DNA of 39,739 nucleotides from an uncultured Alphaproteobacteria bacterium (GTDB lineage Bacteria > Pseudomonadota > Alphaproteobacteria > RF32 > CAG-239), in assembly GCA_944393235.1 (NCBI GenBank), contig CALXZJ010000011.1, positions 1-39,739 on the forward strand, in the 5' to 3' direction. Of this stretch, positions 1,120-39,739 are shown piece by piece. The notes beneath the pieces were generated by a model, which was not told the origin of the DNA, ran no database searches, and was given only the letters and a program-made list of their open reading frames with translations. A program made the translations under genes and the position numbers. Every line of letters begins with the position of its first letter. Position 1 is the first letter of the stretch.

Positions 1120-1219
1120 GTAGAAACTTATCCCCACCAGACTCTTTAAAATTGCAAAAAAAAAAAATGATTTAGAATGACGGGCAAATACATTTACTTT
1201 GCAATTTTAGGAGAAAGTT
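1120..1219 (+). promoter_or_regulatory. Conserved pilin leader, copy 1
   Basis: The block from GTAGAAACTTATCCCCACC to the start codon is repeated at 31012-31112 and, truncated, at 39663-39739. Invariant parts include AACTTATCCCCACC, GACTCTTTAAAATTGC, an exact run of 12 A (1156-1167), TTTAGAAT and AAATACATTTA. A promoter-like pair TTGCAA (1152-1157) and TAGAAT (1173-1178) is separated by 15 bp, most of it the A tract. An inverted repeat pairs 1147-1158 with 1198-1209, with two further U-G pairs reaching into the Shine-Dalgarno AGGAG (1209-1213). Whether the left arm is transcribed depends on where transcription starts, which I cannot tell. Confidence 0.8.
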
Positions 1220-30832: not shown

Positions 30833-30841
30833 CCCCTCTTT

Positions 30842-30882
30842 GTCACGCCCTGAGAGTGCTTTAGCACTCGAGGTTAGGCGTC
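30842..30882 (+). repeat. REP-like hairpin 8
   Basis: A 41-bp near copy of hairpin 1 about 30 kb away: ends GTCACGCC and TTAGGCGTC, arms GAGTGC/GCACTC. It is followed by TGTTGCATGTATGG, a linker also present after hairpin 4. Confidence 0.85.
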
Positions 30883-30901
30883 TGTTGCATGTATGGGAAG
30901 A

Positions 30902-30943
30902 GATGCCTTATCCTCGGTGTTTTCAACACCTCGGAGGCATGAC
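30902..30943 (-). repeat. REP-like hairpin 9, opposite orientation
   Basis: All 42 bases are identical to hairpin 5. With hairpin 8 it forms a head-to-head pair separated by a 19-bp linker, a BIME-like arrangement. Confidence 0.85.
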
Positions 30944-30959
30944 AGAAAAAAAAGGAAGA

Positions 30960-31011: not shown

Positions 31012-31112
31012 GTAGAAACTTATCCCCACCGGACTCTTTAAAATTGCAAAAAAAAAAAACGGTTTAGAATACCGCGTAAATACATTTATTTTGCAGTTTT
31101 GGGGAGAAAATT
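31012..31112 (+). promoter_or_regulatory. Conserved pilin leader, copy 2
   Basis: Same block as 1120-1219 with roughly ten base differences. It has the 12-A tract at 31048-31059, TTGCAA at 31044-31049 and TAGAAT at 31065-31070, again 15 bp apart. The segments 31034-31050 and 31090-31106 can form a continuous 17-bp RNA helix (13 Watson-Crick and 4 G-U pairs) that includes the whole GGGGAG ribosome site at 31101-31106. Relative to copy 1 an A changed to G at 31096, which still pairs with U in RNA. Confidence 0.8.
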
Positions 31113-31712
31113 ATGCGTGAAAACGGTAGAAGTATGGTGGAGATGTTGGGCGTTTTAGCCATTATCGGGGTTTTATCGGTCGGGGCGATTGCCGGGTACT
31201 CCAAAGCAATGATGAAGTATAAACTCAACAAACAGGCCGAACAGCTTTCACAACTTCTTAATGTTATGTATATTTATAAAGAGCAATGGCGGTTTACACA
31301 ATGGGTTAATTTGCTGCCTTACTATATTAAAATGAAAGAAATTCCCGATGGTATGAAAACCGACGGCAGGGTCTTGTATGATAGTTTTAATAATGAAATT
31401 TTATTAAGCAACAACGGTGCTCCTGGTTTTGGACTTGTACATATTGTTATTTCAATTAAAAACAACGACTATGCCATTTGTCAAAACATCATGAATGCGG
31501 TTAAAGAACACCACGCTCAACTTCATCGTGTTTTTACCGGGGTGGTCACCGAAGATGATGACATTGTTTATGACAATCAACTTTATGGTGATGCTTCCTG
31601 CAACAATAATAATTGTATCAGAAACATCTCGCAAGAGGCAATTTATAACATGTGCCAAGCTTGTGTCGATACAAAAAAATGTACCTTTGATATTGAATGG
31701 CGGATTTACTAA
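31113..31712 (+). CDS. Type IV pilin-like (pseudopilin-like) protein, copy 2
   Basis: A 199-residue protein with the same MRENG leader peptide, RSMVE processing site (Glu at mature +5) and hydrophobic helix as the gene at 1220. Residues 1-40 are identical, but 17 of those codons differ synonymously. After residue 40 the proteins diverge. Shared traces are AEQLSQLL, a PDGM motif and a Cys followed by a helix (CQNIMNAV). The C-terminus has five Cys in two clusters (DASCNNNNC and MCQACVDTKKC), suggesting disulphide-bonded or metal-binding loops. GGGGAG lies 6 bp before the ATG. It ends 5 bp from the convergent lptB gene. No prepilin peptidase or assembly ATPase is in the window. Confidence 0.8.
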   Translation: MRENGRSMVEMLGVLAIIGVLSVGAIAGYSKAMMKYKLNKQAEQLSQLLNVMYIYKEQWRFTQWVNLLPYYIKMKEIPDGMKTDGRVLYDSFNNEILLSNNGAPGFGLVHIVISIKNNDYAICQNIMNAVKEHHAQLHRVFTGVVTEDDDIVYDNQLYGDASCNNNNCIRNISQEAIYNMCQACVDTKKCTFDIEWRIY

Positions 31713-39662: not shown

Positions 39663-39739
39663 AACTTATCCCCACCAGACTCTTTAAAATTGCAAAAAAA
39701 AAAAACGGTTTAGAATACCGCGTAAATACATTTATTTTG
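39663..39739 (+). promoter_or_regulatory. Conserved pilin leader, copy 3 (cut by the window end)
   Basis: From AACTTATCCCCACC to the last base it matches copy 2 with a single visible change (A for G at 39677), including the 12-A tract (39694-39705), TTGCAA (39690-39695) and TAGAAT (39711-39716). The spacing in copies 1 and 2 puts the expected ATG at about 39758-39759. No REP-like hairpins precede this copy; 39616-39662 holds only a weak TTGTG-TCGT-CACAA hairpin after mrp. Confidence 0.8.

Follow-up and report, generated by a model that had tools for sequence, protein, structure and literature searches.

The noncoding leader in front of a pilin-like gene near the beginning of the window (the whole stretch of 39,739 nucleotides analysed here, contig C11 of MAG G000) is probably, at a rough probability of 0.75 and judged from its sequence, a promoter cassette common to a large family of variable pilins, on which selection and recombination act together. 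Our best reading is a sigma70-like promoter, with TTGC as the predicted -35 element, a spacer built on A12, TANNAT as the predicted -10 element, and an upstream regulator block of the pattern TTATCCCCA-NN-RGACTC. The host, judged by its relatives, is an uncultured alphaproteobacterium with a genome of 1.43 Mb in 62 contigs (98% complete); those present in named collections belong to uncultured Alphaproteobacteria, and several come from gut, rumen or faecal samples. We compared three congeneric species, i.e. G000, its sister species G001, and G002. The genome-wide work used sequence stretches around the leader copies, and the assemblies are MAG consensus sequences, in which heterogeneity of the A-tract within a population is invisible.

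The leader copies in the window are all on the forward strand. Copy 1 (1125-1219) precedes pilin-like gene 1 at 1220-1834 and copy 2 (31017-31112) precedes pilin-like gene 2 at 31113-31712, while copy 3 (39663-39739) comes after a Mrp-like gene, named by eye, and is cut by the contig end. The first-pass annotation had counted roughly ten differences between copies 1 and 2, and our pairwise alignment agrees, with 11 substitutions in ~95 nt plus a single 1-nt indel. Its count for the first 120 coding bases was also accurate: 17 of the 40 codons differ, at 23 sites, with more than one base changed in five codons. In the G000 genome the 34-nt core has 59 matches at no more than 3 mismatches, versus 0 for a reversed control pattern. 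In total the genome contains ~60 copies of the leader, and 65 genes have a related pilin N-terminus. Leader or pilin copies lie at 47 of the 124 contig ends, and some leaders are cut because so many contigs end in them; the family probably fragments the assembly.

We tested the conservation on 27 pilins picked by protein alone, with no selection by motif. The mean pairwise difference among them is 3.8% from the A-tract to the -10 box, 12.1% in the upstream block (TTATCCCC..TTGC), 28.8% in the remaining 5' untranslated region and 48% in the 20 nt further upstream of the leader, and reaches 50.6% at the four-fold sites of codons 1-45. An earlier estimate of 4.0% for the 34-nt core versus 48% at four-fold sites came from 21 copies chosen through the motif, and its core figure is biased low for this reason. 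The small difference in the core relative to four-fold sites supports the proposal that the leader is a functional element, and the other copies, collected genome-wide, do not show the free divergence that would speak against it. The claim that the leader is more conserved than the adjacent coding DNA is confirmed and strengthened, with one refinement: the conservation does not extend over all of 1120-1219, and the conserved part is ~50 of the 95 bases, ~1128-1178 in copy 1. We rejected recent duplication as the source of this conservation, with synonymous sites near saturation and a core distance that does not follow them (correlation with coding synonymous distance -0.14, i.e. none).

The conserved part has the layout of a promoter. 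In copy 1 the upstream block carries TTATCCCCA at 1128-1136, which is near-invariant in the ~60 copies, resembles a DnaA box and contains TCCCCA. GACTC, a GANTC (CcrM-type) site, follows at 1140-1144, directly upstream of the -35 region. The putative -35 element TTGCAA is at 1152-1157, the A12 tract, which makes up most of the -35/-10 spacer and is pure A in nearly all copies, at 1156-1167, and the putative -10 element TAGAAT at 1173-1178. The same five parts are found in copy 2 at 31020-31028, 31032-31036, 31044-31049, 31048-31059 and 31065-31070, respectively. Transcription would start near 1185, giving a short 5' untranslated region in which GGAG occupies 1210-1213; the whole region 1179-1219 is not strongly conserved. 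Only four A/T runs of at least 9 occur in the window, and three of them are these leaders.

We parsed 144 copies in the three species. All 144 have TTGC or TTGA at the -35 position, where the TTG count is true by construction as the parser required TTG, and 142 have TANNAT at the -10 position, with a perfect TATAAT in 16 G001 copies. The spacer is 15 bp in 43/58, 36/52 and 27/34 copies, i.e. 106/144, with a range of 12-17. This mode is shorter than the 16-18 bp usual for a sigma70-type promoter, which counts against the promoter reading, and a consensus promoter scan did not call the leader site. The core consensus in the three congeners is TTTAAARTTGC-A12-CGGTTTANNAT, with 52, 59 and 28 exact matches and 0 in reversed controls; a single match was found among 123 other genomes of the family (L288 in G111), itself upstream of a pilin. 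The interval between TTATCCCC and CGGTT measures 40 bp in 39/52 and 30/41 copies, and it is kept in three copies with an A-run of 20-21 in which the TTGC has been absorbed into the run. The copies without TTGC are L061, L087 and L112; they count against the promoter reading, as does the scarcity of the U1 block and of GANTC in G002. Two other promoter types were considered and rejected. A sigma54-type promoter was dismissed by eye, as GG and GC are wrongly spaced and GG is absent from most copies, and TAAAGTTG resembles the -35 of a sigma28-type promoter, but the -10 does not fit.

Pilin-like gene 1 starts with MREN-G/RSMVEMLGV and has a variable head. Its prepilin-type N-terminus, G/RSMVEMLGVLAIIGVL (the slash marks the cleavage site), with E at +5 and a hydrophobic helix, fits by eye, and PF07963 (N_methyl) scores 15.5 bits, below the cut-off of 21.2. 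The upstream flank of pilin-like gene 2 is syntenic with G001 L342 (90% over 1.3 kb), and the head there is 27% identical. Each of the 27 protein-chosen MREN-type pilins, for which the upstream sequence was long enough, has the A-tract and the -10. We found no account of the family in the open-licence papers searched. The leader also precedes two TrbC/VirB2-like genes (L064 and L083; the one tested matches PF04956, E 2.7e-7), and in G001 genes for Cys-rich secreted proteins (L337 and L347) stand behind the core with a different upstream block, AAAGAAAAGATTGGTCGGAGAATC. Unrelated genes behind one block at promoter spacing point to a promoter and a regulator site. The first-pass annotation had proposed a functional nucleotide-level element, with a promoter, an RNA structure, a regulator site and a recombination site as options. 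Our results support a functional element, and a promoter with a regulator site is the best fit among these options, given the TTG/TANNAT pair, the near-fixed spacing, the occurrence in three species and the unrelated gene families behind it.

Several other features were seen around these genes. In-frame inserts of variable length lie between the start and GRSMVEML, with recurring segments such as AQPCLSDVYKNSTRAKRRQAD (L066, L072, L094, L096, L099, L117, L142 and others); they would be expected to be removed by prepilin peptidase. A second pilin class of the MKHINEN/MKYINEN type does not have this leader (L062, L084 and L124, on G000 contigs C1, C12 and C38). Its long 5' region, ~250 nt upstream of these pilins, has a fold of -65.8 kcal/mol, 19 covarying pairs over three sequences and a terminator-like hairpin at its end. 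Similar DNA is present in G001 (100%) and G002 (85%), and the G002 copy matches the Rfam family sRNA-Xcc1 at 38.5 bits (E 0.00077), below the cut-off of 53. Short dispersed palindromic repeats, REP-like, lie upstream of leaders in the window at 770-818, 1017-1072, 30841-30889 and 30897-30952, and many leaders come after repeat ends of the GGCATGAC type. In an open frame at 36-782, ITQ/ILQEN-like motifs recur, and Pfam gave no confident match.

The leaders and the heads appear to have different histories. Syntenic flanks of G000 and G001 are mostly 84-96% identical, and many pilin heads there are just 18-33% identical. The linker is ACC in 48/50 G000 copies versus AAA in 32/39 G001 copies. When syntenic loci of the two were compared on the same side, the linkers were different in 12 of 13 cases. 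Four gametes were observed at all ten tested pairs of leader sites, with tight linkage for neighbouring sites only, so the leaders recombine between copies. At a locus beside rpoC, named by eye (L087:862-1570 and L361), G000 and G002 have heads that are ~99% identical at the DNA level; their leaders and their first 60 coding bases differ, and identity in the rpoC flank is ~78%. Going by these identities, this is a recent exchange of the head alone, with the crossover inside the conserved N-terminal coding segment and not at the leader. The pattern shows heads recombining apart from leaders, and suggests that leaders are homogenised within a species.

We propose that the sigma70-like core (TTGC, A12 spacer and TANNAT) would be read jointly with the upstream regulator block and its GANTC site. 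Purifying selection would fix the core as well as its spacing, the upstream block and the linker would stay uniform in each species through ectopic recombination among the copies, and the pilin heads behind the leader are exchanged separately. The sequences show the conservation, the geometry, the uniformity within each species, the four-gamete patterns and the head exchange; from them we infer the promoter activity, the start site, the sigma factor, the regulator and the conversion mechanism. A conversion held to ~50 bp, while four-fold sites 60-100 bp off stay ~50% diverged, is unusual and counts against this explanation; selection on the core probably helps to confine the homogenised stretch to ~50 bp. 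Purifying selection alone, with a regulator preference shifted between the species, would also give uniform leaders without any conversion. The strong constraint on the A-tract and the -10 across species agrees with this, as does the lack of correlation between core and synonymous distances. We nevertheless consider it unlikely, since it needs one change of 2-3 bases at ~40 loci whose flanks are mostly so similar, and the four gametes seen at every site pair indicate recombination. The step from conservation alone to selection is incomplete, since concerted evolution also contributes.

The other readings start from single features of the leader. The arms TTTAAAATTGCAAA and TTTGCAATTTTAGG are complementary, with 14 of 14 pairs in both window copies, and could suggest a structured RNA in the 5' untranslated region, i.e. 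a leader hairpin or an attenuator. However the consensus fold is -0.59 kcal/mol with 0 compensatory pairs, the 3' arm is down to 8-13 of 14 pairs in many copies and was not seen in the G002 leaders, and the predicted start site is downstream of the 5' arm. An Rfam search of the window gave no match, and we find the RNA option of the first-pass annotation unsupported and extremely improbable. A site-specific recombination site, or the end of a mobile element inserting pilin cassettes, would account for the dispersed copies, the lone cores without a pilin at L070 and L108, and the heads changing at syntenic loci. But an unsystematic look noticed no terminal repeats or recombinase beside the copies, the observed crossover is away from the leader, and the core has a promoter layout before unrelated genes. 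What remains of that option is that leaders recombine between copies; nothing marks a site-specific site, and we regard one as very unlikely. Slippage in the A-tract could alter the -35/-10 spacing and switch each pilin independently, as in Mycoplasma hyorhinis, where A-tract indels in all vlp promoters underlie Vlp switching (PMC10502178). Nearly all copies have a long, uninterrupted A-tract exactly within the spacer, there are few comparable tracts elsewhere in the window, and the spacer lengths vary between copies from 12 to 17 bp in the three species. Such phase variation is possible, though we would not expect it, as ~74% of the copies share one spacer length across the three species, and the total spacing held even at an A-run of 20-21 suggests a fixed geometry.

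The upstream block raises the question of cell-cycle control. The promoter may be gated by the cell cycle or by replication, where DnaA at TTATCCCCA and/or GcrA with a CcrM-methylated GANTC would time pilin expression; we treat this as a tentative possibility. GANTC is at a fixed place in 62/65 G000 and 51/56 G001 copies (over 90% in each), and two distinct upstream blocks preserve it, as GACTC or GAATC. It is depleted in the window, with 58 sites versus ~105 expected, yet kept in the leaders. GcrA is encoded in all three genomes (PF07750; match to 7ye1, E 9e-27), and so are methyltransferases of the N6/N4 type, including a G000 enzyme that is CcrM-like along almost all of its length (6pbd, E 2e-151). 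TCCCCA within TTATCCCCA is the DnaA W-box of Caulobacter (PMC4285127). On the other hand, only 8 of 34 G002 copies have a GANTC, and the U1 block is mostly missing there too. The leader site does not match the extended GcrA motif YGAKTCK (PMC7987155), its reverse strand being AGAGTCT with a first base that is not Y, and it lies upstream of the -35. We looked for an oriC-like cluster of TTATCCACA and saw no obvious one. The GANTC beside the -35 and the encoded GcrA and CcrM-like enzymes are leads that hint at cell-cycle control. We speculate, with considerable doubt, that the DnaA-like box, the CcrM site and the A12-spacer core might form a replication- or cell-cycle-gated cassette that coordinates ~60 surface pilins and, in each species, evolves as a single unit, with heads traded between addresses and between species.

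The leader copies differ naturally in spacer length and upstream block, which makes them ready material for studying promoter geometry and a possible GANTC control. In sequence they resemble the GcrA/CcrM-regulated promoters of Caulobacter and Brevundimonas in having a predicted sigma70-type promoter with a GANTC nearby in genomes encoding GcrA and CcrM, and they differ in that the GANTC is upstream of the -35, the extended motif is not fully matched, and the GANTC is missing in most copies of the congener G002. Like Vlp of Mycoplasma hyorhinis, the family consists of variable surface proteins, each gene having its own promoter region with a homopolymeric A-tract (PMC10502178). Unlike Vlp, the leader family is dispersed over the genome and serves type IV pilin-like proteins; one spacer length is common to about three quarters of its copies, and switching in the leaders is hypothetical. 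Neisseria pilE/pilS pilins have a conserved N-terminus and a variable remainder altered by homologous recombination, and the pilins here likewise have a conserved N-terminus with a variable remainder that recombines. Gene conversion takes part in the Neisseria variation (PMC12871193). In Neisseria one expressed locus is fed by silent promoterless copies, whereas here each gene has a predicted promoter and a start of its own at a conserved address, with no silent promoterless donor among the 27 MREN-type pilins whose upstream sequence was long enough. Surface-protein families with many copies commonly vary through silent cassettes moved into one locus or through switching of single promoters. 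Here ~60 pilin loci, many of which occupy the same addresses in different species, share one predicted promoter; between close species it changes in concert while the heads are replaced, so that promoter homogenisation and head diversification proceed together in the small genome of a gut bacterium.
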